A DNA stretch of 64,000 nucleotides from Pelotomaculum thermopropionicum SI. Lineage in GTDB: Bacteria; Bacillota; Desulfotomaculia; Desulfotomaculales; Pelotomaculaceae. The translations under genes and the position numbers were made by a program. The DNA lies in contig AP009389.1 of the NCBI GenBank assembly GCA_000010565.1, positions 1,116,001 through 1,180,000 of the forward strand. The letters are read 5' to 3'. Positions 31,121 to 48,717 of this stretch are shown in pieces; the stretch's first letter is position 1; every line of letters begins with the position of its first letter. The notes beneath the pieces were generated by a model that saw only the letters and a program-made list of their open reading frames with translations, did not search any database and was not told the origin of the DNA.

Positions 31121-32221
31121 TTGACGGTTGCCCTTTTTGACTTGAAAAGGCAGTACCAGAGCCTGGAAAATGAAATAACCGGGGCCATCCGGGAGGTTCT
31201 GGCAGGAGGGGAATACATCCTGGGCCGGCGGGTGCAAATGCTGGAGGAGCAGGTTGCCGCCTACTGCGGGGCAAGGTATGGCGTTGGTGTGGCCAGCGGC
31301 ACCGACGCCCTGTTTCTTTCCCTGGCGGCCTGCGGCGTCGGCAGAGGCGACGAGGTCATCACCACCCCTTTCACCTTTTTTGCCACTGCCGGGGCCATAT
31401 CCCGGACCGGGGCCATCCCGGTATTTGCAGACATTGATCCCCGCACCTTTAATATTGATCCGGAAAAAATTGAAGCCAGGATCACCGGCCGGACCAGGGC
31501 CGTTGTGCCCGTGCATATCTTCGGCCAGATGGCGGACATGGACGCAATTTTAGAAATAGCCGGAAAATACGGCCTGGCGGTAATTGAAGACGCCTGCCAG
31601 GCCATAGGCTCGGAAAACAAAGGCAGGAAGGCCGGGTCTTTGGGGCTTGCCGGCTGCTTCAGCTTTTTTCCCGCTAAAAACCTGGGATGCTGCGGCGACG
31701 GCGGAATGATCGTAACCAGCAATGAAAAACTGGCTGCCAGAATAAGATCCCTCCGGGCGCACGGCAGCAGCAAAAAGTTTTTTCACGAGACAATAGGCTG
31801 CAACAGCCGGCTGGACGAGATTCAGGCGGCGGTTTTGCTGGTGAAATTGAAGTACCTCGAAAAATGGCTGAACAGGCGGGCGGCCCTGGCCGGCCTGTAC
31901 TCCTCGCTGCTGAAAGGCGCTGTTGTTACCCCCTTCGTGGCGCCCGGGAACAGGCACACTTACCATCTTTATGTAATCCGCACGCCCAGGAGGGAAGCGG
32001 TTAAAAGGCACCTGGAAAAAAACGGGGTGTCATGCGGCCTGTACTATCCCCTGCCCCTGCATCTCCAGCCGGCTTACCAATGGCTGGGCTACAGGAAGGG
32101 GGATTTTCCGGAGGCGGAAAAGGCTTCGGAAGAGCTGCTGGCAATTCCCCTTTATCCGGAGCTAACCCGTGCCGAGGTGGAAAGAATTGCTTTGCTGGTC
32201 AGGCAGGGGGTACAGAGCTAA
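31121..32221 (+). CDS. DegT/DnrJ/EryC1/StrS sugar aminotransferase (WbpE-like)
   Basis: 366 residues from TTG behind GAGGGAGGGGG. PLP-dependent fold type I sugar aminotransferase: ASGTDALFLSLAACGVGRGDEVITTPFTF, ADIDPRTFNIDP, VPVHIFGQMADMDAI, VIEDACQAIGS, with the Schiff-base Lys in SFFPAKNLGCCGDGG. Converts a 3-keto (or 4-keto) nucleotide sugar to the amino sugar. It follows the WbpB-like oxidoreductase by 35 bp. It is paralogous to the next gene, and the two may act at different positions of the sugar ring. Confidence 0.88.
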   Translation: MTVALFDLKRQYQSLENEITGAIREVLAGGEYILGRRVQMLEEQVAAYCGARYGVGVASGTDALFLSLAACGVGRGDEVITTPFTFFATAGAISRTGAIPVFADIDPRTFNIDPEKIEARITGRTRAVVPVHIFGQMADMDAILEIAGKYGLAVIEDACQAIGSENKGRKAGSLGLAGCFSFFPAKNLGCCGDGGMIVTSNEKLAARIRSLRAHGSSKKFFHETIGCNSRLDEIQAAVLLVKLKYLEKWLNRRAALAGLYSSLLKGAVVTPFVAPGNRHTYHLYVIRTPRREAVKRHLEKNGVSCGLYYPLPLHLQPAYQWLGYRKGDFPEAEKASEELLAIPLYPELTRAEVERIALLVRQGVQS

Positions 32222-32309
32222 AACCCGGCCACGCTCCGGCGCCTGACTGGCACATCTTCCGTGTCCGGTTAATAAACTAAATAAGACTGGAAAAGGAAGG
32301 TGCTAAAGT

Positions 32310-33422
32310 ATGAATGTTCCTCTTTCGTCCCCCGACATTGGCCAGAGGGAACGGGAACTGGTAAACGAAGTACTAGCCGGCAGCATTCTCAGCATGGGCC
32401 CCAAGGTGGAGCAATTTGAGCGGATGGTGGCCGAATATCTTGGGGTTAAGGAAGCGGTGGCGGTGAGCAGCGGGACCAGCGGCCTTCACCTGGCGGTGCG
32501 GGCGCTCGGCATAGGCGAAGGCGACGAGGTGATCACCACGCCCTTCAGTTTTGTTGCCTCCAGCAACTGTATCCTCTATGAGCGGGCCCGGCCGGTGTTT
32601 GTTGATATAGATCCGCTCACGTTGAACATCGATCCGGAAGGGATAGAAGCCAAAATAACCCCCAGGACCAGGGCCATTCTTCCCGTGCATGTCTTCGGGC
32701 GGCCGGCAGATATGGCTGTTATTATGGATATTGCGAAAAAACACGGGCTGTATGTTATTGAAGACGCCTGCGAAGCCGTGGGCGCCAGCTATAACGGTAA
32801 AATGGCGGGCAGCGAGGGCGATGCAGGTGTGTTTGCCTTTTACCCCAACAAACAGATTACCACCGCCGAAGGCGGGATTATTTCCACCAACAGCACCGAA
32901 CTGGCCGGTTTGTGCCGGAGCATGCGCAACCAGGGGAGGATCGATGGAAAAAAATGGCTTGACCATTGCCACCTCGGCTATAATTACCGGATGGATGAAT
33001 TGAGCGCCGCCCTGGGCGTAGCCCAGATGGAGCGCATCGACGAAATTCTGGCAAAGCGGGAGGCGGTGGCCAGGGCCTATAATGCCAGGCTGGGGCGGTT
33101 GAAGGGAGTCACGCTACCTCATATGGAACCGGGGATTAAAATAAGCTGGTTTGTTTATGTAATCCGCCTGGACCCCGGCATCAGCCGTGACAGGGTGATG
33201 ACCTACCTGCAGGAAAAAGGCGTGGACTGCAGGCCTTATTTCCCGCCGGTCCACCTGCAGCCTTTCTACAGGGAAACGTTTGGCTACCGGGAAGGGGACT
33301 ATCCCAATGCGGAGCGGGCCGCCTCCGCGACGCTGGCGCTGCCGTTTTTCAACAATTTAACGGAACAGCAGATGGATTACGTGGTTGAAGTGCTGGAACA
33401 GGCGATAAGCCGGGCGGCATAA
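32310..33422 (+). CDS. DegT/DnrJ/EryC1/StrS sugar aminotransferase
   Basis: 370 residues. The same family as the previous gene: SSGTSGLHLAVRALGIGEGDEVI, VDIDPLTLNIDPEG, LPVHVFGRPADM, VIEDACEAVGA, Schiff-base Lys in FAFYPNKQITTAEGG, and YNYRMDELSAALGVAQ. The FYPNKQ variant is common in enzymes making 4-amino or 3-amino sugars in capsule clusters. RBS AAAGGAAGG upstream of the ATG. This is the last gene of the rightward polysaccharide locus and ends in a bidirectional terminator. Confidence 0.88.
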   Translation: MNVPLSSPDIGQRERELVNEVLAGSILSMGPKVEQFERMVAEYLGVKEAVAVSSGTSGLHLAVRALGIGEGDEVITTPFSFVASSNCILYERARPVFVDIDPLTLNIDPEGIEAKITPRTRAILPVHVFGRPADMAVIMDIAKKHGLYVIEDACEAVGASYNGKMAGSEGDAGVFAFYPNKQITTAEGGIISTNSTELAGLCRSMRNQGRIDGKKWLDHCHLGYNYRMDELSAALGVAQMERIDEILAKREAVARAYNARLGRLKGVTLPHMEPGIKISWFVYVIRLDPGISRDRVMTYLQEKGVDCRPYFPPVHLQPFYRETFGYREGDYPNAERAASATLALPFFNNLTEQQMDYVVEVLEQAISRAA

Positions 33423-33423
33423 A

Positions 33424-33448
33424 AAAAGCCGGTTATTTGCCGGCTTTT
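33424..33448. terminator. Bidirectional terminator between convergent genes
   Basis: AAAAGCCGG/CCGGCTTTT with a seven-base loop; A-run on one side and T-run on the other. It serves the aminotransferase gene and the convergent membrane protein gene, whose stop codon lies within the arm. Confidence 0.75.
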
Positions 33449-34014
33449 GACTCTTCATCGAAGAGGGGCGATTTATCTATGACGGTTTTTTCCGTTACGT
33501 TCACGTTAACGTCGACATCTGCCGGGACTTCGTAAACAATCCGGTTATTCTTCGACAGGATGAGCTTGGGCGCTTGCTCCGAAGTGTTTCCTGTTAAAGT
33601 AATGTCAATTACCTTATGCCTGGACGATGTCTTGGTAACTATCATTTCCACGTCCCCGAATTTGATCAAATCGCCCACTTTGCTTCCCGAGGCAATTATG
33701 TTGTTGATGCTGGCCGCTGCCGGTGGTGCGGGAGTGGACGGCGGGTTTGAAACACTGCCCGGAGTTGTTGCTGGCGCTGGATTTGCCCTAGTTTGAGCAG
33801 GGCTGGCGGGTTGAGCGCTGGCAGGACTGCTTTGTGCTGCCTTTGCAGGCGTTCCCTCTTTTTGCAATTCTTCTGCCTGCTTTGTATAGGACTCCTGATT
33901 AAATTCCCTTTCCTTTAAACTTACGTAATTCTCTTTCCAGAGGTAGGCTCCAAGCAAAATAATCAAACCAAAGAAGGCAATTGATACCGTAAAAAAAATT
34001 TCCCGCCTGGTCAC
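33433..34014 (-). CDS. Membrane-anchored protein of unknown function with Pro/Ala-rich linker
   Basis: 193 residues. One N-terminal helix (about 7-27), a charged stretch, a low-complexity Ala/Pro/Ser/Thr linker (about 60-105), then a beta-rich domain of about 85 residues (GDLIKFGDVEMIVTKTS, VIDITLTGN, RIVYEVPADVDVNVNV). I do not recognise the family. The layout suits a surface or periplasm-facing domain on a flexible stalk. It is the last of three leftward genes, the others encoding secreted-type proteins sharing a C-terminal module. Confidence 0.6.
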   Translation of the reverse strand: MTRREIFFTVSIAFFGLIILLGAYLWKENYVSLKEREFNQESYTKQAEELQKEGTPAKAAQSSPASAQPASPAQTRANPAPATTPGSVSNPPSTPAPPAAASINNIIASGSKVGDLIKFGDVEMIVTKTSSRHKVIDITLTGNTSEQAPKLILSKNNRIVYEVPADVDVNVNVTEKTVIDKSPLFDEESKAGK

Positions 34015-34143: not shown

Positions 34144-34575
34144 TTAGCTTTGGCCCTGGAACCAGATGGTAACAGCCGAATTAAAACCCTGTTTTTTATT
34201 TTTGAATTTTAACCTGGCAAACCTTAAGAAGTATTGCGGAACAATAACCTGCATATTTCCAGGGAAAACAGTTGATTCAGACTCACCGAAGGACCCCCAG
34301 GTGATGCCGTCCGTACTCATTTCCGCCTGACAAATTACTGGATTTAATCCCTCGTTTATCACTAAAAATGTAAATACACGCAGACGCGATACCTCCCTTG
34401 ATTTGCTGTGCCGTACTTCGTCAGAAGTCTTTAAGTTCCTTTGAACAAAACTGGAGAAATGGGGAGTCAATGAACTTTTATGCTTTTTTTTATCGGACTT
34501 CACAACATAAAACAGATTGCCGTTTTCCTCTACAATAAAATCTTTGGTTGAATTTTTCAAACTATTGGCCTTCAT
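34144..34575 (-). CDS. Small protein sharing the C-terminal domain of the adjacent repeat protein (DUF6385-like)
   Basis: 143 residues. The C-terminal 70 residues (EMSTDGITWGSFG, QVIVPQYFLRFARLKFKN, NSAVTIWFQGQS) match the end of the repeat protein at 34659 (QISPDATTWQDEA, LVAQTFLKYARVYYS, AVTLNIFFQGQS). I associate this module with DUF6385-type proteins of Clostridia, from memory and untested. The N-terminal half is basic and polar, with no signal peptide. Paralogous fragment or partner subunit of the neighbouring protein. Confidence 0.55.
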   Translation of the reverse strand: MKANSLKNSTKDFIVEENGNLFYVVKSDKKKHKSSLTPHFSSFVQRNLKTSDEVRHSKSREVSRLRVFTFLVINEGLNPVICQAEMSTDGITWGSFGESESTVFPGNMQVIVPQYFLRFARLKFKNKKQGFNSAVTIWFQGQS

Positions 34576-34658
34576 TAAATACCTCCGGGATTTTTTATTT
34601 ATTTAATTTATATGTATATTATAGAGGAGATTGGGAAGACATTGTCTTCCCAATCTTT

Positions 34659-35537
34659 TTATGACTGGCCCTGGAAGAAGATGTTCAGGGTTACGGCGCT
34701 GCTAGCGTTGACGGCGCTGTAGTAGACTCTGGCATACTTTAAGAATGTCTGGGCTACTAGAGTCGTCATAGAATTCTGGTTGATGGTTACCGGGCCCGCC
34801 TCATCCTGCCAGGTTGTAGCGTCAGGGCTGATTTGCAGTTTGACCAGCGCCTGGGCATTTGCGACTGTGGAAACGTTTACTACACCGAAAGTCCAGGTAC
34901 TAAGCCCAAGCACGTTATAAGTGGTGTCAGGGGTACCCGCGGTGTCAGTGATGTTGGCCCTGGTTGCCGACACGTCAGTGGTACCCACGGCGACTGCCAG
35001 CCCCGTGGAGGTGATGAGAATACCGTTGGCCGGCGGTGTGATTGACAGGCCGGAAGCCGGCGCCGTGACGGTGAGGCCGTTGGCCGGGGCAGTGATGGCC
35101 AGGCCGGTGCTGGTGATGGTGAGGCCGTTGGCCGGTGGCGTGATAGCCAGGCCACCGGTGGGCGGGGTAATGGACAGGCCGGAAGCCGGCGCCGTGACGG
35201 TGAGGCCGTTGGCCGGGGCAGTGATGGCCAGGCCGGTGCTGGTAATGGTGAGGCCGTTGGCCGGTGGCGTGATAGCCAGGCCACCGGTGGGCGGGGTAAT
35301 GGACAGGCCGGAAGCCGGCGCCGTAACAGTCAGGCCGTTGGCCGGGGCGGTTATGGCCAGGCCAGTGCTGGTGATGGCCAGACCATTGGCCGGCGCCGTG
35401 ATTGCCAGGCCTGTTGAGGTTATTGCCAGGTTACCTAATGAGTCGGTGTTGAACGCGACGTTGTTGCTGCCGAAAATTTTTACTTTTACCTGGTCCGGAT
35501 TGTCCTGGAAAATTTTAAAGTTTGGCATGAGAGACAC
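34659..35537 (-). CDS. Thr/Ser-rich short-repeat surface-type protein with DUF6385-like C-terminus
   Basis: 292 residues in three parts. Residues 1-35 are a conserved-looking head (FKIFQDNPDQVKVKIFG). Residues 36-182 are made almost wholly of 9-residue (GLAITAPAN, GLTVTAPAS, GLSITPPTG) and 7-residue (GLTITST) units, arranged as 43-residue super-repeats. The rest is a globular domain shared with the gene downstream, ending NIFFQGQS. Alternating beta-branched residues and Gly turns suggest a stacked beta structure, and the abundant Thr/Ser could be glycosylation sites. There is no signal peptide, so delivery by another route, for example as a spore or S-layer-associated protein, is possible. 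It is divergent from three glycosyltransferase genes. Confidence 0.65.
   Translation of the reverse strand: MSLMPNFKIFQDNPDQVKVKIFGSNNVAFNTDSLGNLAITSTGLAITAPANGLAITSTGLAITAPANGLTVTAPASGLSITPPTGGLAITPPANGLTITSTGLAITAPANGLTVTAPASGLSITPPTGGLAITPPANGLTITSTGLAITAPANGLTVTAPASGLSITPPANGILITSTGLAVAVGTTDVSATRANITDTAGTPDTTYNVLGLSTWTFGVVNVSTVANAQALVKLQISPDATTWQDEAGPVTINQNSMTTLVAQTFLKYARVYYSAVNASSAVTLNIFFQGQS
34992..35432 (-). repeat. 129-bp coding super-repeats of a beta-strand-like array
   Basis: The DNA repeats with a 129-bp period (43 codons) at near nucleotide identity for two full copies (about 35106-35234 and 35235-35363) plus partial copies at both sides. Arrays of this kind change length by slipped pairing or recombination. 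Confidence 0.85.
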
Positions 35538-35667
35538 TCCTTCATATTAGTTCTGATTAATGTAGCTACCTAAAAATAGAATATTTTACATATTAGTGGA
35601 AAGTTCCAGTTTTTGCAACATATATTAAAATAAAAATTTACTGTTTTGAGAGGTATAAAGGAAAATT

Positions 35668-37641
35668 ATGGATGCCAGAATAAGCTTGTGTATGATTGTT
35701 AAGGACGAGGCACAAAACATCCGCAGGTGCCTGGAGAGCGTAACCGGTGCAGTAGACGAAATAATTGTTGTAGATACGGGCTCCACCGACGAAAGCTGTC
35801 AAATAGCCGGAGAATACGGAGCGCTCGTACACTTGTTTCCCTGGAATGAAAACTTCAGCGACGCCCGCAACGCTTCACTGGAACTGGCCACCGGTGACTG
35901 GATCCTGTTTCTGGATGCCGACGAGGAACTGGCAGGGGAGAGCAAGGAAGCGCTGCGAAGGCTGACGGCAGACGATAATGTGGAAGGTTACTTTGTAAAG
36001 ATAATTAACTACCTGGGGAACGAGGGGTGGATCGAAACCTGCCCGGACCTGGTCTTCCGTCTTTTTAGAAACCGGCCGGAATACAGGTTTCGCGGAGCGA
36101 TTCACGAGCAGATCGCCGACGTCATCCTGGAGAAAAACGGCAAGGCCGCCTACCGCATGGCGGAAGAAATAGTGATAATCCATTACGGCTATTTAGACAG
36201 GCAGATAAGTGAAAAAGATAAAAAGAACAGGAATCTGAAGATAATTCAAAAGGAGCTTGGTGAAAATCCTGAAAACCGGTTGTTGAGGTTTCACTACGGC
36301 GTGGAGCTTTTCCGTGCCGAAAGGTATGCGGAGGCAGCTGATGAGTTGACCCGGGCCGCAAACGGCATAGATCCCAATACCATTTACCTTCCGAAGCTTT
36401 TGCGGTATATTGTCATGTCCCACCAGTCTGCCGGTCAGCCTGAGAAAGCCCTCGATGTGGCCCGCCTGGGCCTGCAGGTTTTTCCCAATTATGCGGACCT
36501 GTACTACTATTGCGGGCTTCTTTACTTAGAATTGAGGCGGTATACCTTGGCCCGTGAATATTTCCTAAAGGCGGTCTCAATGCCGGAACAGCCGGCCCAG
36601 TACGCTTCTTTTGGCGGTGTAAGGGGATTCAGGTCGTACTACCACCTGGGCCAGATTTCGGAAATTTTCTTAGACTACGAAGATGCGCTCCGCCACTATA
36701 TTTCATGCTTGCGTGACAATCCTGATTTTACCCCTGCTCTGGAAAATATCGTGAGAATTCTCAAGCCACGTGAAAATCCTGATTACGCAAAGGAATGCCT
36801 GGAAAAAGTTTTTGAATTCAGCACTCCCCGGGCCAATCAAATGATGGGAAATATATACTTCCGGCAGGGAGCATACAGCCTTGCCCTGGAATACTTTAAT
36901 AGATATACAGGCAGCGAGCCGGCATCGCCTGAAATTCAGCTCTGGAAAGCCATTTGTTTAATTCAACTGCGGCGGTACCTGGAGGCGCTGAGAATCATAG
37001 AGAGCTTTAATTCCAATAGCCATCTGTACCCGCTGGCAATGTTAAACAAATTACTTTGTTTTTGGGTTCAGGGCAAGAAACAAAAGGTCTGCTCTATTTT
37101 AGCGGAACTACGCGCCCTGGGCCTGGCGGAGGACACGGATAAGGTTTTAACTCTTTTTTTGAATTCACAGGACAAACGAAAAAATGTATATAGAGTAACC
37201 CTGGGGCAGGACGGGGTGGCTCTCTTACTTGATATCGTAAAGAGATTGCTTGATATGAATGAAGCAGACAGAGCGATTTATCTGTTGAACAAGGTCAATC
37301 CTGAAAGTATGGCCGAATACAGGCTGACCATCGCCCGGCTCTTTTATGACTTCGGCTTTAAGGAAAAGGCAGAACTGCTTTTGAGAGAATATTTGACTGC
37401 AAACCAGGACGGGGAGGCGCATTTCCTGTTAGCGGAAATCTGCCGGGAGACAGGTAATTACATCGAGGCTGCACAGCATTACCAGTACGCCCTGGAAATC
37501 AACCCGGATGAGCCGCGTTATTACCTCAGGCAAATAAACCTGTACGACAACTGGCGCAAAAAAATCTTGCAAGAAGCCATTGAAAAATACCCTAATCTGG
37601 AGGTTTTTATAAAGCTATCGGAGGAGGCCCCGGTTAACTGA
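35668..37641 (+). CDS. GT2 glycosyltransferase fused to TPR repeats
   Basis: 657 residues. Residues 1-230 are a family 2 glycosyltransferase (SLCMIVKDEAQNIRRCLESV, VDTGSTDES, FLDADEEL with the metal-binding Asp triad, RLFRNRPEYRFRGAIHEQ). The remainder is TPR-like helical repeats (YHLGQISEIFLDYEDALRHY, GNIYFRQGAYSLALEYF, HFLLAEICRETGNYIEAAQHY). No membrane segment, so cytoplasmic. TPRs in such enzymes usually hold protein acceptors, as in O-GlcNAc transferase and flagellin glycosyltransferases. First of three related genes in a row, coupled by TGATG to the next. Confidence 0.85.
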   Translation: MDARISLCMIVKDEAQNIRRCLESVTGAVDEIIVVDTGSTDESCQIAGEYGALVHLFPWNENFSDARNASLELATGDWILFLDADEELAGESKEALRRLTADDNVEGYFVKIINYLGNEGWIETCPDLVFRLFRNRPEYRFRGAIHEQIADVILEKNGKAAYRMAEEIVIIHYGYLDRQISEKDKKNRNLKIIQKELGENPENRLLRFHYGVELFRAERYAEAADELTRAANGIDPNTIYLPKLLRYIVMSHQSAGQPEKALDVARLGLQVFPNYADLYYYCGLLYLELRRYTLAREYFLKAVSMPEQPAQYASFGGVRGFRSYYHLGQISEIFLDYEDALRHYISCLRDNPDFTPALENIVRILKPRENPDYAKECLEKVFEFSTPRANQMMGNIYFRQGAYSLALEYFNRYTGSEPASPEIQLWKAICLIQLRRYLEALRIIESFNSNSHLYPLAMLNKLLCFWVQGKKQKVCSILAELRALGLAEDTDKVLTLFLNSQDKRKNVYRVTLGQDGVALLLDIVKRLLDMNEADRAIYLLNKVNPESMAEYRLTIARLFYDFGFKEKAELLLREYLTANQDGEAHFLLAEICRETGNYIEAAQHYQYALEINPDEPRYYLRQINLYDNWRKKILQEAIEKYPNLEVFIKLSEEAPVN

Positions 37642-39401
37642 TGGAAGATACTATCACCCTGGCAATGATCGTAAAAAACGAAGCCGGAAATTTAAAGAGA
37701 TGCCTGGACAGTGTCAGCGGCCAGGTTGACGAGATTGTTATCGTGGACACAGGTTCCACGGACGAAACCCTGGAAATAGCACGAAGGTATACGGATAAAA
37801 TTTACCACTTTCCCTGGGGCGGTGACTTTAGCGCCGCCCGGAATTTTGCTATTGAAAAGGCCGGCGGTGAATGGATAATATCCCTTGATGCAGATGAGGA
37901 ACTGGTTTCCGGAACCGGAGACTTGAAGCGCCTTGTAGCCCGGGATAAACACCTGGAAGCCTACCTCTTGCCCCTAAACAATCCTACCGCCGGTTCTCCC
38001 GGTGAATACAACCGTTTTTTGGTGCTGCGTCTTTTCAGGAACAACGGGCGCTACCGGTTCCGGGGAAAAATCCACGAACAAGTCACCGTTTCTGAAAAAG
38101 GAGTGGTAGGAATAGCAGAAGGGCCTGTGATAAGCCATAAAATGCTTCCTGCCAGGGAGCGCAACCGCAAAAGAGGGCGCAACCTTGCTTTACTGAAAAA
38201 GGCGTTTTCTGACGACCCGCAGAACTATTTTTTACAATATTACATTGGGGTCGAGTGGCTGATGCTGGGCAAGCCGGAGCGGGCCCTCCCGCACTTTCAG
38301 CAAGCTTACCGCAACCTCACGGACGAGAACCTCCTCTTTCGCGGGCCTGCTTTGCGTTACTTAATTATCTGCTTGAAGGAATTGGGAAGACTGGACGAGG
38401 CAATTTGCCTCTGCCTTGAAGCAGACCTCAAATATCCTGAATATACCGATGTTTATTACTTGTGCGGGGTCCTCTTCGAGGAAAAGAAAGAGTTTCAGTT
38501 GGCCATAAAGTGGCTAAATCAGGCAGTCAAGTGCGGGACACCCCCGGCTATTTACAGCCACATGAACGGGGCAGGGAGTTTTTTAGCCTTCTACCACCTT
38601 GGCTACTGCCACGAAATGCTGGGCCAGGCAGAGGTGGCAGAGAACTATTACCAGCAAGCCCTGGACACAAACCCTGGATATATTTATCCGATCTACAACC
38701 TCTTTCTGATAATGCTGGCAAAACGCGGTCCCCGGCTTACTCTGGAATATTTCAAGAAAAAAGGCTACCTGGGCCACATTGACCTGGCCCTGGCCGCGGC
38801 CGGTTTGTTTTTTAATTGGGGTTACCCGGAACTGGCCCGCCGGTGCCTGGGGCACTATGAAACAAGCGGTAAAAGAGCCAAAGAATTTTATTTTTACCTG
38901 GGTAAATACAACATTTACTCGGGGAAGCTGAAGCAGGGGCTGGATTATTTGAAGCAGGTTTCAGAAGAAAGCAGCTTTTTTATCCAGTCACAGATCCTCC
39001 GGGCGGTTGCCCTCCTGCTCCAGGGCCGTTTCGAGAAAGTAAGGTCTCTGGCCCTTGAGTTGTGGAAGAACCATGCGGCCAGGCGCCGCGCCCTGGTCCT
39101 GTTGAGCTTAGCCCGCCTGGTGGAAAAGGGAGGGACGTTAAGCTTCCCTCAAAAAGTAAGGGATATAGACCTGTTGGAGACTGCCCTTGAAATCCTTGAC
39201 CAGTGCAGCCGCTATCTGCCTGATGAAGATCGCGCCCGAAAGGACCCTCGGCTCAACCGTCTGATCAATGGCCTGGAAGCGCTCATTAAGAATAATTCGC
39301 CCCGCGGCCACCTGGCCTTAATTGAGCATTACCGCGATAAGTCTTACAGCGCCCGGAGCTTTTTTGATTATAAATACGGGTTTGGCGGGAACCGGGTATG
39401 A
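37641..39401 (+). CDS. GT2 glycosyltransferase fused to TPR repeats (second paralogue)
   Basis: 586 residues, with the same plan as the preceding protein: GT2 domain (TLAMIVKNEAGNLKRCLDSV, VDTGSTDETLEIARRY, SLDADEELV, RFRGKIHEQ) and TPR-like repeats (YLCGVLFEEKKEFQLAIKW, FYHLGYCHEMLGQAEVAENYY). The ATG shares its A with the upstream TGA, and its own stop overlaps the next ATG as ATGA, so all three are translated together. Probable cytoplasmic protein O-glycosyltransferase; the substrate is inferred to be a surface protein of this locus. Confidence 0.85.
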   Translation: MEDTITLAMIVKNEAGNLKRCLDSVSGQVDEIVIVDTGSTDETLEIARRYTDKIYHFPWGGDFSAARNFAIEKAGGEWIISLDADEELVSGTGDLKRLVARDKHLEAYLLPLNNPTAGSPGEYNRFLVLRLFRNNGRYRFRGKIHEQVTVSEKGVVGIAEGPVISHKMLPARERNRKRGRNLALLKKAFSDDPQNYFLQYYIGVEWLMLGKPERALPHFQQAYRNLTDENLLFRGPALRYLIICLKELGRLDEAICLCLEADLKYPEYTDVYYLCGVLFEEKKEFQLAIKWLNQAVKCGTPPAIYSHMNGAGSFLAFYHLGYCHEMLGQAEVAENYYQQALDTNPGYIYPIYNLFLIMLAKRGPRLTLEYFKKKGYLGHIDLALAAAGLFFNWGYPELARRCLGHYETSGKRAKEFYFYLGKYNIYSGKLKQGLDYLKQVSEESSFFIQSQILRAVALLLQGRFEKVRSLALELWKNHAARRRALVLLSLARLVEKGGTLSFPQKVRDIDLLETALEILDQCSRYLPDEDRARKDPRLNRLINGLEALIKNNSPRGHLALIEHYRDKSYSARSFFDYKYGFGGNRV

Positions 39402-41932
39402 AGAAAAAAGAAACCGTCAGTTTGTGCCTCATAGCAAAAGACGAAGAGGAGTTCATTTTATCCTGCATTAACAGTGTAAAACACCTGGTTGACGAAATAG
39501 TTGTGGTGGATACTGGCTCCCGGGATCAGACGGCCAGGCTGGCCAGAGAGGCGGGGGCCAGGGTATATGATTTTAACTGGCCGGGTGACTTTGCCCTGGC
39601 CAGGAATTATGCACTGGAACAGGCTGTATCCGGCTGGATCCTGGTGCTCGATGCCGATGAAGTCCTGGACTATGTCACCGTTGAAGATTTTAACCGGCTG
39701 CTCTGCGCCTGCGATGTGGAAGGATACTTCCTGCACATTAAGAACTACCTGGGAACAGGGCAAGAAGTGGCGTGGGACCAGGTTGTGAGGCTGTTTAGAA
39801 ACAAGCCTGCCTACAGGTTCACAGGGGCCATACACGAGCAGGTGGCGCCGGCCATTTTAAACGCCAATGGTGGCAGAGGGCTGGCGGCAGCCCCCCTGGT
39901 GATTAACCATTACGGCTATTTAAAAGCCCAGCTCTTGAAAAAAGATAAATTTAAACGAAACACTATAATCATCAAGAGGGCGCTCGAGAACAACCCTGAC
40001 GACCCGTTCCTTTTATACAGCCTTGCTGTGGAACACTACCAGAAGGGAGAAATTTCTAAAGGCCTTGACTGTTTTGAAAAAGCCCTGGTCCGGATGCGGG
40101 GACCGGAAGGTTATTTTGAGGATGTAGTCCTTAATATCGCACTGGGATTATTAAAATTGGGCAGGACGGAAAGGTTAATCGAGTTTGTAAGCAAGTCACT
40201 GGAGATGTTTCCTGAACACCCTGAATTGTTTTTACTCAGGGGTCTGGGTTACCTAAACCTGGGGAAATACCTCGAAGCCGCCGGGGATCTCGACAGGACA
40301 CTAAAAAAGGGAGGCAGCAGGCTGTTTCCGGAATCCTTTATCCGTGACTTAATAGGGGAGAGGAGCATGCTTATGAAACGGCGGGTCCTGGTGGCAAGCC
40401 CAGTACGGCAAAAAGAAGCAATCCTGAGGGAATTCCTGGAGTCGCTGGAGATGCTGGATACTTCAGGGCTGGAGCTGGATTTCGCCTTTATTGACGACAA
40501 TAACGGGCATGATTTGCTGGCCGCCTTCGCCTGGAGAAAGGGCAATGTCCGGGTTTTTCCGGCGAAGTCCGGAGATTCCTACCTTTGCGACGAGACCACC
40601 CACTACTGGCGGGAGGAACTGATCTGGAAGGTGGCCGCATTTAAAAACCAGTTTATCAAGCTTGCCCTGGAAGAGGGCTACGACTACCTTTTTCTCGTTG
40701 ATTCGGATTTATACCTGCATCCCAAAACAATCACCCACCTGGTCTCCCTGGGAAAGGACATTGTCTCGGAGGTCTACTGGACCAGGTGGGAGCCGGGCAT
40801 GGTTCCACTCCCCCAGGTGTGGGCCGGGGACCAGTATCGCCTGTACCATTTCCAGAGGGGCGAGGTCTTGAGTGAGGAGGAAACAAACCGGAGGACCTCC
40901 GAATTTTTGCAAATGCTGTCCGGGCCGGGCACCTATAAGGTCGGAGGACTGGGAGCTTGTACCTTAATCAGCAGAAGAGCGCTGTCCATGGGGGTGTCCT
41001 TCAGTGAAATATACAACCTGGGCTTTATCGGCGAGGACCGGCACTTTTGCGTCCGGGCCGCCGCGCTGGGGCTGGAACTCTATGCCGACACCCATTACCC
41101 GCCCTTTCACATCTACCGGGAGTCCGAACTGCCGGCCCTCAAAGAATATAAAGAGCGAATTTTTCCTGCCGGTAATCTTAAGAGCAAATGTACGGCAAGT
41201 ACACCAGTACAGCACAGGAGAGGGGAAAAAGGAAGCAAAATTACTCTGGCTATGTTAGTAAGAAATGAGGCAGGAAGGTACCTGGAAATGGTCCTTGAAC
41301 ACGCTGCCCGGTATATTGACAGCGCCGTCATCCTGGACGACGCCAGCGAGGACGACACGGTAGAAGTATGCAGAAGGGTTTTGAGCGGTATCCCCCTGAA
41401 CCTGGTTTCAAACAAGGAGCCGTGTTTCAACAATGAGATAGTTCTGAGAAAACAACTTTGGGAACTGACCGTTGATACCGGGCCCGACTGGATCTTGATC
41501 CTGGACGCCGACGAGATTTTTGAAGACAGGGCTCCCCAGGTTTTAAGGTCACTGGCAAGACGCCCTGACGTATATTATTATGCCTTCCGCCTATATGACA
41601 TGTGGGATGAAAAATTCTACCGCGAGGACACCTACTGGTGTGCCCACAAGTGGTACCGCCCCTTCATGGTCAGGTACGTCCCGGGCTTTAACTACCTGTG
41701 GAAGGAGACTCCCCAGCACTGCGGACGTTTTCCCAAAAATATAGAGGAATTGAGAGGTGAGGCCAGCCAGTTGAGGATTAAACACCTTGGCTGGATGAAA
41801 CCGGAAGACCGCCTCAAAAAGTATTACCGCTACAAGCAACTGGATCCTGAAAGCGTCTACGGTATAAAGGAGCAGTACCAGTCGATCCTTGACCCCAGGC
41901 CGAATTTAGTGCCCTGGGTGGAGGAACTTTAA
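39398..41932 (+). CDS. Multidomain glycosyltransferase: GT2, TPR, second GT, and C-terminal GT2
   Basis: 844 residues. Residues 1-220 are a GT2 domain like its two upstream paralogues (SLCLIAKDEEEFILSCINSV, VDTGSRDQT, LDADEVLDY). TPR-like repeats follow to about 320. Residues about 327-590 form a different nucleotide-sugar domain (RRVLVASPVRQKEAILREFL, FLVDSDLYLHPKTI, GFIGEDRHFCVRAAALGLEL), and about 613-844 a further GT2 domain (TLAMLVRNEAGRYLEMVLEH, LDDASEDDTVEV, LDADEIFEDRAP). Three catalytic modules in one chain could add successive sugars. The domains keep their Asp motifs, so all look active. Confidence 0.85.
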   Translation: MKKKETVSLCLIAKDEEEFILSCINSVKHLVDEIVVVDTGSRDQTARLAREAGARVYDFNWPGDFALARNYALEQAVSGWILVLDADEVLDYVTVEDFNRLLCACDVEGYFLHIKNYLGTGQEVAWDQVVRLFRNKPAYRFTGAIHEQVAPAILNANGGRGLAAAPLVINHYGYLKAQLLKKDKFKRNTIIIKRALENNPDDPFLLYSLAVEHYQKGEISKGLDCFEKALVRMRGPEGYFEDVVLNIALGLLKLGRTERLIEFVSKSLEMFPEHPELFLLRGLGYLNLGKYLEAAGDLDRTLKKGGSRLFPESFIRDLIGERSMLMKRRVLVASPVRQKEAILREFLESLEMLDTSGLELDFAFIDDNNGHDLLAAFAWRKGNVRVFPAKSGDSYLCDETTHYWREELIWKVAAFKNQFIKLALEEGYDYLFLVDSDLYLHPKTITHLVSLGKDIVSEVYWTRWEPGMVPLPQVWAGDQYRLYHFQRGEVLSEEETNRRTSEFLQMLSGPGTYKVGGLGACTLISRRALSMGVSFSEIYNLGFIGEDRHFCVRAAALGLELYADTHYPPFHIYRESELPALKEYKERIFPAGNLKSKCTASTPVQHRRGEKGSKITLAMLVRNEAGRYLEMVLEHAARYIDSAVILDDASEDDTVEVCRRVLSGIPLNLVSNKEPCFNNEIVLRKQLWELTVDTGPDWILILDADEIFEDRAPQVLRSLARRPDVYYYAFRLYDMWDEKFYREDTYWCAHKWYRPFMVRYVPGFNYLWKETPQHCGRFPKNIEELRGEASQLRIKHLGWMKPEDRLKKYYRYKQLDPESVYGIKEQYQSILDPRPNLVPWVEEL

Positions 41933-42088
41933 CAAGTCAACCAAAAGCCATAGCTGGTACCATTCCATAACGGGCTCAAGAATTTTTAATAAGCCACAAT
42001 GTTCTTCATAATTTATATTGTGTCTGCATGGAAATGTAACGCATATCTTGTAATAGTATGATTTTATGGAAAAAAGGGGTGTGGGCTA

Positions 42089-43153
42089 GTGAAGTATAAA
42101 CTTGGCAGGGTTGATGATATAATTTCAGCATTTAATTCAATAAGTCAGAAGCAGGATAAGGCAAACCATAAGCTGTCCAGGCTGTCGACAACAGTTTCAT
42201 CCATTAACACCAAAGTAGCCAACCAGGTGGAAGTTTTGAGGAGCCAGGTCTATCTTTTCAGCAGCGACATGGGCTGGCTGGGTATCTGGGATATTGCGTC
42301 CGGCAGTTATAAAGGCTTTGTAAACGTCGGTTCTTCCAGCTCCGGGAAAATGACTGTCGCCGGGGAAACCGGGCAGGTTTTCCTGCTGGCTGAAAACGGC
42401 AATAAAATATTTATCATAGATCCCTACCTTCCCGGCGTTACGGGGGCGTTCCAATTTGATGCAGTGGCTTCCTTTGCAGTTTCTCCAGGCGGGCAAAGAA
42501 TATTTGTATCCCAGAACAGCAGCTCGATTTTGACGGAAGTGGATGCCTATTCAGGCAAAACAATGAGAAACTTTAACCTGCCCGGTACGGGCCTGCACCT
42601 GACTATATGTCCCGAGGCCTATATGATTTACTTCTCCGTTGCCGGAACCAAAGCGGTTTACAGCGTCCAATACCTGGCCGGGGAAGTGGCAAAGGTATTC
42701 GACCTGCCGGACGATGCTGTAAAAATGGCTCCGTATAAGTTCGGCAATAAGTTCGGGCTGCTGGTATTGAGCGGCAGCGGCAATACTGCAGCCATAACAA
42801 AATGGGATAAATCCACTGATACCACCAGCACCGTGCAGGTGGCCAACGCCAGTGAAATTGTCGTGAACCCCTTCACCGGCCAGAATTACGTCGCGAGCTT
42901 AAATAGCATCGTGTTCAGGGCCCTGGACGGGACAGTTGTAAAGACGGTCGATCTGCTTGATCAGGCGAAGCAGTTGACTCTTTCAGTGGACGGGGTTAAT
43001 TTGATTGCTGTGGTAAGCGCCGGTAAGGATGCCCTGCTGGTGGATACTATCAGTGGGGTGGTTTCCACCGGGCCTAAAGCACTCTACCCGCCGACTCAGA
43101 AAACGGCTCAACTGCTCCTGGCCCATGCCCAGTTTGGCTTTGCCAGCAACTAA
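42089..43153 (+). CDS. Beta-propeller protein with N-terminal coiled-coil segment
   Basis: 354 residues from GTG behind AAAAAGGGG. Residues 1-52 are a heptad-rich helix (FNSISQKQDKANHKLSRLST); the rest is repeated four-stranded blade-like sequence typical of YVTN/WD-like propellers (GWLGIWDIASGSYKGFVNVG, IFIIDPYLPG, QRIFVSQNSSSILTEVDAYSG, VVKTVDLLDQAKQLTLSVDG). There is no signal peptide or anchor. The coiled coil may drive oligomerisation. Being 156 bp after the glycosyltransferase trio, it may belong to the same surface-structure locus. Specific function unknown. Confidence 0.65.
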   Translation: MKYKLGRVDDIISAFNSISQKQDKANHKLSRLSTTVSSINTKVANQVEVLRSQVYLFSSDMGWLGIWDIASGSYKGFVNVGSSSSGKMTVAGETGQVFLLAENGNKIFIIDPYLPGVTGAFQFDAVASFAVSPGGQRIFVSQNSSSILTEVDAYSGKTMRNFNLPGTGLHLTICPEAYMIYFSVAGTKAVYSVQYLAGEVAKVFDLPDDAVKMAPYKFGNKFGLLVLSGSGNTAAITKWDKSTDTTSTVQVANASEIVVNPFTGQNYVASLNSIVFRALDGTVVKTVDLLDQAKQLTLSVDGVNLIAVVSAGKDALLVDTISGVVSTGPKALYPPTQKTAQLLLAHAQFGFASN

Positions 43154-44131: not shown

Positions 44132-44149
44132 GGCTGCCTAACGGCAGCC
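44132..44149 (-). terminator. Terminator overlapping the sigK stop codon
   Basis: Read leftward: GGCTGCC, loop GTTA, GGCAGCC, then TTTACTT. The stop codon of the sigK 3' half lies in the loop region. Confidence 0.55.
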
Positions 44150-44494
44150 CTCGAGGTTAAACTCCCTGGTCAGCTTATTTAAGGCCTTCTTTTCAATACG
44201 CGACACGTACGAGCGCGATATTCCCAGGCTTTTGGCAATTTCCCGCTGGGTCATGCGCGCCCCGTCCTCCAGCCCGAACCTTAGCTCCAGCACTTTCTTC
44301 TCACGGCGGGTGAGCTGGCGCACTTTTTCCAGCAGACGTTTTTGCTCGAAATTGTTTTCTACCATTTCGGCAACCACCTCGGGGTGGGTGCCCAGAATGT
44401 CAATCAGGGTGATTTCGTTGCCTTCCTTATCGACTCCGATCGGATCGTACAGCGACACCTCGACCTTAACTTTTTTCATAAACCTTAAGTGCAT
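44138..44494 (-). CDS. sigK: SigK 3' half (regions 3-4), SpoIIIC-like, split by the intervening element
   Basis: 118 residues from MHLRFMKK: the C-terminal part of sporulation sigma factor K (KVKVEVSLYDPIGVDKEGNEI, LTRREKKVLELRFGLEDG, and the region 4 helix-turn-helix TQREIAKSLGISRSYVSRIEKK). It has no ribosome site and no region 2, so it is not a functional gene as it stands. Coding sequence continues upstream to the crossover core at 44499-44504 as ...E-I-L-M-H-L-R. Joining at that core to the half at 48714-49097 restores the frame. SigK directs late mother-cell transcription in sporulation (coat genes, mother-cell lysis). Confidence 0.93.
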   Translation of the reverse strand: MHLRFMKKVKVEVSLYDPIGVDKEGNEITLIDILGTHPEVVAEMVENNFEQKRLLEKVRQLTRREKKVLELRFGLEDGARMTQREIAKSLGISRSYVSRIEKKALNKLTREFNLEGCR

Positions 44495-44520
44495 AAGAAT
44501 TTCAGTGCCGCTGACAAAAC
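44487..44520. other. Attachment site of the sigK-intervening element (sigK 3' side)
   Basis: Core ATTTCA at 44499-44504, shared with the site at 48751. On the sigK side is AAGTGCAT (44487-44494); on the element side is TGACAAAAC (44512-44520). Each is one arm of a dyad completed by the other end (see the 48737-48770 site). Confidence 0.8.
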
Positions 44521-44752
44521 TTTAGCATTCTCCCGTGCCGTTCGTTTAAAAAATTAAAGGATGCGTTACGCCGGAAATTTCTTGCAGAACATCCGTTCTG
44601 CTGGTACAATAATATTGAAGGTGGTTATATTAGGCATAGTGCCCTGTTTGCCCAAAATTACTTCCAAAAAAATTTTTCCGGTGTTTTAGGTGTAAGCCTT
44701 GCAGTATTTTGACCATGCTGGAAATCCGGCAGAAATAGCGTGGGAGTGAGTT

Positions 44753-45994
44753 ATGGAATTGCAAGAGTTATTGACTGGCGAAGAAAAAAAGGCATATATG
44801 TATCGTTCAGTTAATAAACCGACCAGGCCGGAAACAGTAACTCCCGAGACCCCTTTGGAAGATTTAAATTTGAACTGGCGGGAGGTTGACCTGCCTGAGC
44901 GCGAAAGGACGAAGCACGTCCACCGTCTGCATCCTTACCTGGGGAAATTTATACCTCAATTAGTGGAAATATTTTTAAGAAAATATTTCAAACCAGGACA
45001 AACTGTGCTCGACCCGTTCTGCGGGTCCGGCACAACCCTGGTCCAGGCCAATGAACTGGGAATAAATTCAATCGGTTGCGACATAAGCGCCTTCAACGTG
45101 CTCTTATGCAGGGCCAAAACGGCAGAGTACGATCCTGTTAAAGCTCAAAAAGAGATACAGGATATATTAAAAAGGACGGAAGCGGAGGTTAAAAAGATTT
45201 ACGGCGGCCGGCAGATGGCTTTTTGGGAGGACGAAGTACCTGCCCTTTCCGTGGAAACGAAAGACGAATACCTGCTGACCTGGTACGCTCCCCGCGCTTT
45301 GACAGAGTTGCTTGTTTACCGGCATTTTATAAATGATTACGAATATCAGGACCTTTTGAAGGTTATTCTTTCCCGTTCCGCCCGTTCGGCCCGGCTCACC
45401 ACGCACTTTGACCTGGATTTTCCTAAAAAGCCGCAAACCGAGCCCTACTGGTGCTACAAGCATTCCCGGATGTGTCAGCCTACGGCTGAGGCTTTGAAGT
45501 TTTTAAGCCGCTACAGTTACGACACTGTCGGTAGAATTAAAGAATTTGCCCAAGTCAGGACAGGGGCCCCGGTTGAGGTGCTGCACGCCGACAGCCGCAC
45601 GGTAAACTTTCCTCCGGTTCATGGAGTAATCACAAGTCCTCCTTACGTCGGCCTGATCGACTACCACGAGCAACACGCTTACGCTTACCGGCTTTTAGGC
45701 CTGGAGGACAAAAGGGAAAATGAGATTGGCCCTGCTGCGGAAGGCACGAGCCAGAGAGCAAAGCAGAAATACCAGGAAGACATTGCCGAGGTTTTCCGCC
45801 GTATTGGAGAGTCCCTTTTGCCGGGCGGCAAGGTGATCGTTGTGGCGGCAGATACGGCCGGGCTGTACGGCGAAATTGCGAGGCTGGCCGGGTTCGAGCA
45901 GGAATACGTTATAAACCGTCACGTTAACCGGCGCACCGGCAGGCGGGCAAGCGAGTTTTACGAATCGGTTTTTATCTGGGAGAAAAGGGGTTAG
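44753..45994 (+). CDS. DNA methyltransferase of a type II restriction-modification system
   Basis: 413 residues. The AdoMet-binding motif TVLDPFCGSGTTLVQANELG is at about 82-101, and the catalytic motif VITSPPYVGLIDY (S/T-S-P-P-Y) at about residue 287, with a long insert between. SPPY motifs are found in amino-methylating enzymes (N4-cytosine or N6-adenine). RBS GGGAGTGAG precedes the ATG. It is the first gene inside the element and is followed 6 bp later by the endonuclease gene, so the pair is co-transcribed with the methylase first, which favours protection before cutting. Confidence 0.87.
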   Translation: MELQELLTGEEKKAYMYRSVNKPTRPETVTPETPLEDLNLNWREVDLPERERTKHVHRLHPYLGKFIPQLVEIFLRKYFKPGQTVLDPFCGSGTTLVQANELGINSIGCDISAFNVLLCRAKTAEYDPVKAQKEIQDILKRTEAEVKKIYGGRQMAFWEDEVPALSVETKDEYLLTWYAPRALTELLVYRHFINDYEYQDLLKVILSRSARSARLTTHFDLDFPKKPQTEPYWCYKHSRMCQPTAEALKFLSRYSYDTVGRIKEFAQVRTGAPVEVLHADSRTVNFPPVHGVITSPPYVGLIDYHEQHAYAYRLLGLEDKRENEIGPAAEGTSQRAKQKYQEDIAEVFRRIGESLLPGGKVIVVAADTAGLYGEIARLAGFEQEYVINRHVNRRTGRRASEFYESVFIWEKRG

Positions 45995-46000
45995 TTAATA

Positions 46001-46825
46001 ATGAACAGTTCTCCGCTGCCTGGCGATATTGAGCAAAAACTGAAAGAGTACCTGGCAGGCTACTTTCATAAGCGCTTAATCCCTTTAGTAGACAAGGCGG
46101 TAAACACCTCAAAAAGTTTTTTAGATGATGAAGCCAGGCGGGAGGTAGACCCTGAAGGTAAAAAACAGCCTTTTTTGGAAGCCGTATTCCCGCCTGAAGC
46201 GATTTTGATAAAAAGGCTGGAACGGCCTTTTTCAACTAAATTAGGCAGAACTTTTGAGGAAGCAGCCAGAATAATCGCGGCGCATTACCATCCGGAAGCA
46301 AAAACGGGCTGCAGGGTTCAAGGGGCGGTAGATGCCTTTGCAATTGCAAGGATAGATCAAATGTTAAATCTCTGGAGAGAAAACAGCAGCAAAAAACCGA
46401 GTTTTCCAGAAATGAGCCGCCAGGCGGCAGGAGTAATAGATGAAAGCAAAAGGGAAATAAGCATACAGGCCGATCTCTATGTCAAACACTCCAGCGGAGT
46501 CAGCTATTTTTTTGAAATAAAGTCACCAAAGCCAAACAAAGATCAGTGCCTGGCGAGCATGGAAAAAATGTTGAGGCTGCAATTAATCAAAAAAGGAGAA
46601 GCAGCACAAACTTTTTATGTAATGCCGTTCAACCCTTACGGAACGAGAGACGCTTACAGTTACACTTTCGCTAAAACTTACCTCGATTTTGAAAACTTTG
46701 TCCTTTTGCAGGAAGAGTTTTGGGACGGGATTATAGGCCCGCCCGGCACTTTTCAGGCCTTGGTGGATATTTACCGGCAAACAGGCGAGGCAGTTCGCCG
46801 CAGAATAAAATCTCTGTTTTCGTAA
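46001..46825 (+). CDS. Type II restriction endonuclease, TdeIII-like, PD-(D/E)XK fold
   Basis: 274 residues. The catalytic core is visible as ISIQADLYVKHSSG followed by YFFEIKSPKPNKDQC, that is Asp ... Glu-x-Lys. Length and the FEIKSPKPN block recall the TdeIII family, whose founding enzyme cuts GGNCC; that assignment is from memory and the cut site here is unknown. No helicase or translocase domain. Paired with the methyltransferase upstream. Loss of the pair from a cell lineage would normally be toxic, because residual endonuclease outlives methylation. Confidence 0.75.
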   Translation: MNSSPLPGDIEQKLKEYLAGYFHKRLIPLVDKAVNTSKSFLDDEARREVDPEGKKQPFLEAVFPPEAILIKRLERPFSTKLGRTFEEAARIIAAHYHPEAKTGCRVQGAVDAFAIARIDQMLNLWRENSSKKPSFPEMSRQAAGVIDESKREISIQADLYVKHSSGVSYFFEIKSPKPNKDQCLASMEKMLRLQLIKKGEAAQTFYVMPFNPYGTRDAYSYTFAKTYLDFENFVLLQEEFWDGIIGPPGTFQALVDIYRQTGEAVRRRIKSLFS

Positions 46826-46973
46826 ATATTGATGTGGTACAGGTTACTGAAAAGAAAGATTTCCAGGATACTGCAACAAGCAATACCGGCTTAACCACCT
46901 AATTTTGGACAATTAGCCTTAAATACATAAAGTTTTCATAGAATTTCAATTTTTTGTGCCAAACAGGCAGACG

Positions 46974-47009
46974 ACCCGACTTTGGAGAAAGCCGGGTTTT
47001 TATTTTTTT
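46974..47009 (+). terminator. Terminator after the restriction-modification genes
   Basis: ACCCG-a-CTTT/AAAG-c-CGGGT around a four-base loop, followed by TTTTATTTTTTT. It separates the restriction-modification transcript from the recombinase transcript. Confidence 0.75.
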
Positions 47010-47074
47010 GTAAAGACATGTAATAGGACAATTACCTGGTTGCGTAGAAATACCGAGAAAGGAGTTTGACGGTT

Positions 47075-47236
47075 ATGAAAACCGGCAAAATCAGGGAGAG
47101 AGGTTCGCCGTCAGTGAAAGTCAAAGTGGTCTACACGCCGGGAGGGCAGGGTTTGAAGAACGCCTACCAACTGCTGGCGAAAAAAGTGCTGCAGGAAAGG
47201 GAGAAGAAATGCGTGCGGCAGTCTATGTCAGAGTGA
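47075..47236 (+). CDS. Small basic protein upstream of the recombinase
   Basis: 53 residues (MKTGKIRERGSPSVKVKVVY then TPGGQGLKNAYQLLAKKVLQ and a Lys/Arg-rich end). A GGAG site lies ten bases before the ATG. It overlaps the recombinase start by 28 bp, so the two are translationally coupled. No family recognised. The size, basic charge and coupling would suit an accessory factor for recombination, but nothing in the sequence proves that. Confidence 0.6.
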   Translation: MKTGKIRERGSPSVKVKVVYTPGGQGLKNAYQLLAKKVLQEREKKCVRQSMSE

Positions 47237-48717
47237 GCACCGAGGACCAGGCGCGGCACGGCTACTCTTTGCAGGAGCAAAAGGAAGCGTGCCGCTGCCG
47301 GGCCGTCGATTTAGGTGCTAAAACCGTATTGGAGTTCGCAGACGAAGGTGTCTCCGGAGCCACGCTGGACAGGCCCGGCCTGCAGGGGTTAAGGGAATTG
47401 ATCCGCTCCGGTCAAATAGACCTAGTGGTGGTCCGGGATCCGGACAGGCTTTCCAGGAAGCTGTCGCACCAGCTCATTTTGACCGAGGAAATAGAAAAGG
47501 CCGGCGTACGCCTGGAGTTTTTAGATTTTGACTGGAAAGACACCCCTGACGGCAGGCTTTTTTATGCCATCAGAGGGGCAATAGCCGAGTTTGAAAAAGA
47601 AAAAATCCGCGAGCGGATGGCGAGGGGCAAAACGCAAAAAGCCAAGCAAGGCGGCATGCCTATAGGGTTTTATAATTACGGGTACGTTTACGAGCCGGAA
47701 ACCGGGAAGGTGCGGCTGCACGAGACTGAAGCAAAAGTGGTTGAGGAGATATTCAAATGGTTTGTCCAGGAAGACATCGGCATAAACGGCGTAGCTAAAA
47801 GGCTCAACGAGGCAGAAGTACCCAGCAGGAAAGGCAAAAGGTGGCACAAACAGGTTGTCAGGCAGGTACTTGTCAACCCTGTTTACAAAGGGACCTGGCA
47901 GTACAAGGATATTTGTATTCCAGTGCCTGCCATCATTGACGAGGCCGTATGGCTGAAAGCGCAGGAGAAGATCAGGGGAGCGCGCCGGCTGTGGGCCGGG
48001 CAGAGGAAGCACGACTACCTGCTTTCGGGAATCGTAACCTGCGGGGAGTGCGGCCAGACAATGACCGGCGTTTACTCGAAGTGGTGGAATAAAAAAGACC
48101 GGCGTTATACCTGTTTTAAAGGATACCAGGGGGCCAGGCACCGGGGCTGTCTGCCGTCCAAATACGTCTTAGCAGGTTATGTCGAAAGCGCTGTGTGGGA
48201 GCAGGTGAAAGACTGGCTGCAGGACCCTGGGGCCCTGGCGAGCGAGGCTTACGCTTCTTCGCCGAGGGTGGAGGATTATTTAAAAGAGCTCGAACGCACC
48301 GAAAAACTATTGTCCGAAGTTGAGAAGGGGAGAGAGGCGGTCCTGGACGCTCTCGCTTCGGGGTTGTTCGAGCTTGACGCCAGGACGAAGGCGAAACTGG
48401 CTGACTTAAAACGCCGGAAGGAGCGTCTGGAGCAGCGCAAGAAGGAGTTGGTTTTAACTGTGCGCGGGGCGTCCGGCGCGGTAGCCAGGATGGACGAGCT
48501 GAGGGCGCTGGCAAGTGAGGTTTTGGGACGGATAGACGAATTAGATTTTTCTGAAAAGAAAGCCCTGGTGCGGGCGCTGGTGGCCCAGGTTGTGGTTTCG
48601 GGTAAAGGGAAGCGCGGCGCGAACGGGTTAGCTGACATAACCGTGACTGTCGTCGCCCGGATGCCGGAACCGGTTGAAAAAGCGGGACTTTTGGAGAGTG
48701 TTAAAGCCAGGTATTAA
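47209..48717 (+). CDS. Large serine recombinase, SpoIVCA-like site-specific excisionase
   Basis: 502 residues. N-terminal resolvase domain with the nucleophile in [20 protein letters not shown] (Ser of RVST), [12 protein letters not shown] and [16 protein letters not shown]; then a recombinase domain ([40 protein letters not shown]), a zinc ribbon ([12 protein letters not shown] ... YTCFKG ... GC), and a coiled-coil helix (about 355-430) of the kind that controls direction. It ends 4 bp past the stop of the sigK 5' half, facing it. SpoIVCA of B. subtilis performs the same job: deleting the skin element to make sigK. Confidence 0.94.

Follow-up and report, generated by a model that had tools for sequence, protein, structure and literature searches.

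The window, a 64,000-nucleotide stretch of the Pelotomaculum thermopropionicum SI genome, contains a divergent locus of two DUF6385 proteins and three glycosyltransferases. On balance, we favor the interpretation that this locus makes a spore-surface glycoprotein, produced in the mother cell and O-glycosylated in the cytoplasm, similar to the BclA3/SgtA system but built on a non-collagen stalk. We are confident that the DUF6385 proteins and the glycosyltransferases constitute a dedicated substrate-enzyme set. The spore surface is the likely site of the product, O-glycosylation of the stalk is reasonably probable, and the chances that the product is a trimeric fiber are about even. That the 34659 product is glycosylated, and where it is located, are what we infer from the evidence below.

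The locus and its DUF6385 proteins

The genome around the locus is closed, measures 3,025,375 bp and contains spoIVA. All six genes of the first-pass annotation were found at their coordinates in the open reading frame list of the window (Table 1).

Table 1 Features of the DUF6385 locus, in window coordinates.
Feature	Position	Strand	Evidence
Short DUF6385 protein, 143 aa, without stalk	34144..34575	-	Pfam PF19912 E 6.6e-24
Stalk protein, 289 aa from likely ATG	34659..35528	-	Pfam PF19912 E 1.9e-22, tandem repeat, 21-relative alignment, AlphaFold2, composition
Divergent promoter region	35529..35667	.	Conserved elements in 13 loci
GTa, GT2-TPR glycosyltransferase, 657 aa	35668..37641	+	Pfam Glycos_transf_2 + TPR; PDB matches; DXD at residue 83
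GTb, GT2-TPR glycosyltransferase, 586 aa	37641..39401	+	Pfam; DXD; GmaR 4.7e-35
GTc, fusion GTcN + GTcC, 844 aa	39398..41932	+	Pfam; DXD; GmaR 9.7e-34; units separate in most relatives
Coiled-coil beta-propeller protein, 354 aa, lineage-specific accessory	42089..43153	+	AlphaFold2, Foldseek

The C-terminal module noted at first pass as common to both minus-strand proteins is Pfam PF19912 (DUF6385) in each, with scores of 84.2 and 79.5 bits against a gathering score of 26.8. These two are the only DUF6385 proteins in this genome. Searches of Pfam and NCBIfam found no other domain in either, including no BclA-C/TNF-like or BclB-related domain. A Pfam Arabino_trans_N match on the stalk repeats fell below the cut-off and was taken as compositional.

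The Thr-rich array of 7- and 9-residue units proposed for the longer protein is real. Its gene holds a DNA tandem repeat of period 129 bp (2.9 copies, 92% matches, score 641), well above chance, and the units resolve into 7 residues (GLTITST) and 9 residues (GLAITAPAN) of the type GL-x-(I/V)-T. The likely start of this stalk protein is the ATG at 35528 (MPNFKIFQD..., kept in relatives) and not the GTG at 35537. From this start, the protein comprises a leader (residues 1–33, beginning MPNFKIFQDNPDQ...), the Thr-rich repeat stalk (34–178) and the DUF6385 head (179–289). Leader positions M1, P2, N3, K5, F7, Q8 and D9 (M-P-N-x-K-x-F-Q-D) are nearly invariant in an alignment of 21 sequences. The 145-residue stalk is 27.6% Ser and Thr, with 20% Thr, and contains neither charged residues nor Cys; the whole protein is free of Cys. 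Across relatives the protein ranges from 210 to 309 aa and the stalk varies in length, as expected of a spacer.

In relatives, the stalk gene has an orthologue of the short DUF6385 protein beside it. At three loci (L036, L038, L039) this counterpart includes a hydrophobic segment, and at three others (L034, L041, L097) a CBM96 domain. The short protein is a putative anchor or cap. Downstream of the pair, the minus strand at 33433-34014 encodes a protein of 193 aa that has a single membrane segment at its N terminus. A gene 52% identical to it occupies the matching place in P. propionicicum (L040), so that in this lineage the protein may be part of the set.

Predicted structures

AlphaFold2 predicts the DUF6385 head to be a jelly roll (pLDDT about 90) and gives no regular structure for the stalk in the monomer. 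Foldseek and VIA-align place the Ena1/2/3 endospore-appendage subunits among the best solved folds for the head (Z 8.6–9.9). However, the head also resembles jelly rolls unconnected with spores, namely PBSX XepA (Z 11.2) and PirA (Z 10.6), and GOLD domains too; by VIA-align Z, unrelated jelly rolls match it as well as or better than Ena. Two family assignments were rejected by hhalign: a divergent F-ENA head (DUF4183, probability 0.1%) and a divergent Ena (probability 2.2%, p 0.022), for which any likeness is in the predicted fold only.

A weak profile match links the stalk to the shaft of the AfpX13 tail fiber (E 0.004); it is a lead only, and would fit a fiber of short beta-repeats. Together with the resemblance of the head to predicted viral jelly rolls, this match could instead mean that the stalk protein was domesticated from a phage or tail-fiber protein. 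We regard such an origin as very improbable, since no relative was confirmed in viral contigs, the DUF6385 and propeller proteins lack a PHROG match, and no phage genes were recognized around the loci.

The coiled-coil beta-propeller assignment of the last gene agrees with its AlphaFold2 model, in which an N-terminal helix (6–49) is followed by beta blades, at a mean pLDDT of only 61 from two sequences. The best Foldseek match is an archaeal surface-layer YVTN propeller (E 1.3e-13).

The glycosyltransferases

The description of three coupled GT2-TPR genes divergent from the DUF6385 pair was borne out: GTa overlaps GTb by 1 base and GTb overlaps GTc by 4, and all three proteins match both GT2 and TPR. 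DXD motifs are present, and for all three N-terminal glycosyltransferase domains the nearest PDB sequence is GmaR, the Listeria flagellin glycosyltransferase (GTa at 7.7e-40), followed among glycosyltransferases by SunS, the SPbeta peptide S-glycosyltransferase (GTa 2.7e-21). GmaR and SunS both act on polypeptides, and GmaR is also an antirepressor. In GTc, the N-terminal part (GTcN) is a GT2-TPR unit, and GTcC is a unit of ~510 aa that combines a sub-threshold Anp1-like segment with a second GT2 domain; the two are separate genes in most relatives. By their GT2, DXD and TPR features, GTa to GTc classify as putative GT2-TPR enzymes of the SgtA/GmaR-like protein-glycosyltransferase type.

SunS-like S-glycosylation was considered and rejected, since the TIGR04195 equivalog scores are 95.9, 83.2 and 77.5 bits against a cut-off of 350 and the stalk protein offers no Cys.

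In other lineages, six loci (L101, L102, L104, L121, L125, L128) carry GT2-TPR proteins of ~1,100–1,250 aa beside or between DUF6385 genes, one of which (L101) has two GT2 stretches. These long proteins look as if several glycosyltransferase genes had been joined into one.

Conservation of the gene set

Gene order in relatives bears directly on the proposal of a dedicated scaffold with its own glycosylation enzymes. The stalk gene and the glycosyltransferases stay together: the stalk gene is divergent from GTa-GTb-GTc in 19/19 usable contigs across the order, those with enough flank, and the later glycosyltransferases follow where the contig reaches. These contigs include named genomes of Desulforamulus, Desulfofundulus, Desulfotomaculum, Pelotomaculum propionicicum and Desulfovirgula, as well as MAGs. 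DUF6385 itself is present in 14 of the 60 relatives, mostly as a pair, and is absent from most genomes of the window's own family. The propeller had been included in the set at first pass, but it occurs in just 3/60 genomes, all three with DUF6385, and is no part of the core; in P. propionicicum it sits at the end of the glycosyltransferase operon.

The association extends across the phylum, where 56 of the 398 sampled genomes encode DUF6385. GT2-TPR genes lie within about 10 kb of DUF6385 at 15/20 distant loci, often sandwiched between two DUF6385 genes, as against 0/20 same-size control windows drawn from other places in the sampled genomes (p = 8e-7). Thus, the order-wide divergent layout and the phylum-wide proximity uphold the pairing of scaffold and enzymes. 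The gene set is widely conserved but unstudied, and a literature search found no mention of DUF6385.

The same enzymes might instead build a separate spore or cell-surface polysaccharide, sharing only regulation with unglycosylated DUF6385 proteins that act in the coat or bind carbohydrate. GT2 domains are widespread in polysaccharide synthesis, genes of a polysaccharide type, sugar aminotransferase-like ORFs, lie upstream in the window (31121-33422), some relatives of the short partner bear CBM96, and the remaining 5/20 distant DUF6385 loci have no nearby GT2-TPR gene. We consider this unlikely, because the closest solved relatives of the enzymes modify polypeptides, the conserved set includes neither a polymerase nor a flippase, and the uncharged, Thr-rich stalk is a fitting acceptor whose gene is the one held in the tight divergent pairing.

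A DUF6385 gene without nearby GT2-TPR (L126:13661-14707) stands beside what appears by eye to be a NeuB-type nonulosonic acid synthesis-like cluster. Elsewhere, a plus-strand gene (L127:6005-7204) couples a DUF6385-like end to a long array of GTLNKVTAVGTITKVAT units and adjoins GT2-TPR and collagen-like genes, and so has another stalk repeat in the same setting.

The divergent promoter

The intergenic region contains a conserved 31-bp element on the minus strand (35577-35607), GTAACNTTCYAC-N10-AATAYYCTA. At a fixed offset from it, on the strand of the glycosyltransferase operon, is a GCATANNNTA-like box, and both are kept in 13 loci with fixed spacing. The GCATANNNTA sequence is exact in 9/13 loci and has one mismatch in 4/13, some of the loci being near-identical pairs, compared with an exact rate of 0.4% in shuffled sequence. 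We take this box to resemble the -10 of sigma-E/sigma-K promoters. We do not posit a full sigma-K promoter, since the -10-like box is conserved but has no AC 16–17 bp upstream and no fitting -35. A regulon defined by the 31-bp element was discarded, as the element is present as a single copy in the genome.

Probable link to sporulation

Among high-quality genomes, spoIVA is found in 47/47 with DUF6385 and in 258/309 without it (p = 4e-4); the genomes are not independent, and this co-occurrence is a matter of consistency and not proof. Overall, two DUF6385 genomes lack spoIVA, with completeness of 75% and 80%. Gene neighborhoods may point the same way. One DUF6385 locus (L131) neighbors a gene whose DNRLRE/CBM96 and collagen-like product bears an exosporium BclB-related domain, and L127 neighbors GPT collagen-like proteins and a GT2. 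At two loci (L116, L117) yabG directly adjoins the DUF6385 pair, at another (L113) the neighbors are sigF-spoIIAB-spoIIAA, and in this window sigK lies 1 kb beyond the propeller gene. Since sporulation genes are common in such genomes, the exosporium-type neighbors carry most weight. By crude hydropathy alone, no protein of the set has a signal-peptide-like hydrophobic stretch at its N terminus. This agrees with the first-pass remark on signal peptides and would suit proteins that reach the spore surface from the cytoplasm of the mother cell. The main text of the P. thermopropionicum transcriptome paper does not mention spores or glycosyltransferases.

The first-pass annotation had offered spore-surface or sheath use, and the spore surface is the better of the two; for a vegetative sheath we found no evidence. 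A sheath on the surface of vegetative cells, or a structure in the cytoplasm, would be sensible to the extent that Pelotomaculum lives in close contact with methanogens, giving a cell-surface role some appeal, and that the closest fold of the propeller is an archaeal surface-layer protein. Nevertheless, the lack of signal peptides, the exosporium-type neighbors and the confinement of DUF6385 to spoIVA-bearing genomes, once completeness is considered, make a structure other than one of the spore improbable.

Comparison with known systems and proposed mechanism

The nearest parallel to the proposed spore-surface glycoprotein is found in C. difficile, in which SgtA, a GT2 enzyme carrying four TPRs, modifies Thr of the BclA3 repeats with beta-O-GlcNAc and is encoded by a gene adjoining bclA3 (PMC7157674); bclA genes are under sigma-K (PMC3789822). 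Both systems place a protein of Thr-rich repeats beside a GT2-TPR enzyme, which O-glycosylates the repeats in C. difficile and would do so here. The present stalk, however, is not collagen (no G-X-Y), the head is DUF6385 in place of BclA-C/TNF-like, and three or four glycosyltransferase units are divergent from the substrate gene where C. difficile has one.

In F-ENA proteins (DUF4183; PMC11952670), an N-terminal hook that docks on the preceding head, a beta neck of variable length and a C-terminal head would correspond to the conserved leader, the stalk and the head of the stalk protein; the lack of a signal peptide is shared. Each subunit of F-ENA-4, from a member of the Clostridia, shows putative O-glycans at five Ser and three Thr (PMC11952670). 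In contrast, the locus has neither DUF4183 nor a collagen-like anchor, and comparing the profiles showed no relationship. DUF4183 is absent from this genome and from the order above cut-off. No genome of the phylum sample has both DUF4183 and DUF6385, though only about one such genome would be expected.

The S-/L-ENA subunits Ena1/2/3 (PF13157) may be alike in the jelly-roll-type fold predicted for the head, whereas the stalk protein lacks the Cys needed for disulfide linkage; PF13157 gave no match to the DUF6385 proteins at E 0.1 and none in the genome. GmaR and SunS provide the parallel of a GT2 domain acting on polypeptides, although the putative substrate here differs from that of SunS in being the Cys-free DUF6385 stalk protein. 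By the features tested, the locus is not a member of the BclA, F-ENA or Ena families.

We propose that, during sporulation, the mother cell would make both DUF6385 proteins and the glycosyltransferases. In the cytoplasm, the GT2-TPR enzymes would hold the substrate through their TPR arms, place a first sugar on stalk Thr/Ser and then extend it. The analogy with SgtA and GmaR makes GlcNAc the probable first sugar. The chains would probably form trimers, with the repeats as a beta-fiber and DUF6385 as the head, and could self-assemble at the surface of the engulfed spore, on its outer coat or exosporium, where the short DUF6385 protein may serve as anchor or cap.

More speculatively, and with considerable doubt on our part, the DUF6385 stalk proteins may represent a third, unrecognized class of endospore appendage, in which glycosylated trimeric fibers with a beta-spiral-like stalk take the place of Ena and F-ENA pili in ~1/7 of the sampled phylum genomes. 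DUF6385 is commoner in this sample than DUF4183 (7 genomes) or Enas (2 genomes), and the stalk protein differs in fold and repeat from the collagen-like hairs on the spores of model bacteria. If the product is a spore-surface glycofiber, it would reveal the outer covering of spores in many environmental anaerobes, and the locus would offer a compact set of substrate and enzymes in which to study how repeat fibers are O-glycosylated in the cytoplasm.

Other features of the window

A secreted-looking ORF of 667 aa (26288-28291) contains a 426-bp in-frame tandem duplication at 27430-28281 (98% matches), which doubles the C-terminal module of the protein and is a recent event.

The sigK gene is split into parts at 44138-44494 and 48714-49097, both on the minus strand, by a skin-like element of 4,252 bp (about 44505-48756). 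In order of position, the element encodes a DNA methyltransferase (44753-45994), a restriction enzyme of the TdeIII type (46001-46825, E 1.8e-70) and a large serine recombinase (47209-48717). When its flanks are joined at a shared TGAAAT, an intact SigK frame of 235 aa results. Many genomes of the order have sigK split near residue 110–126 (G001, G011, G014, G025, G027, G029, G034, G035 and others) and in others it is intact, such that elements interrupting sigK look common and variable in the order.
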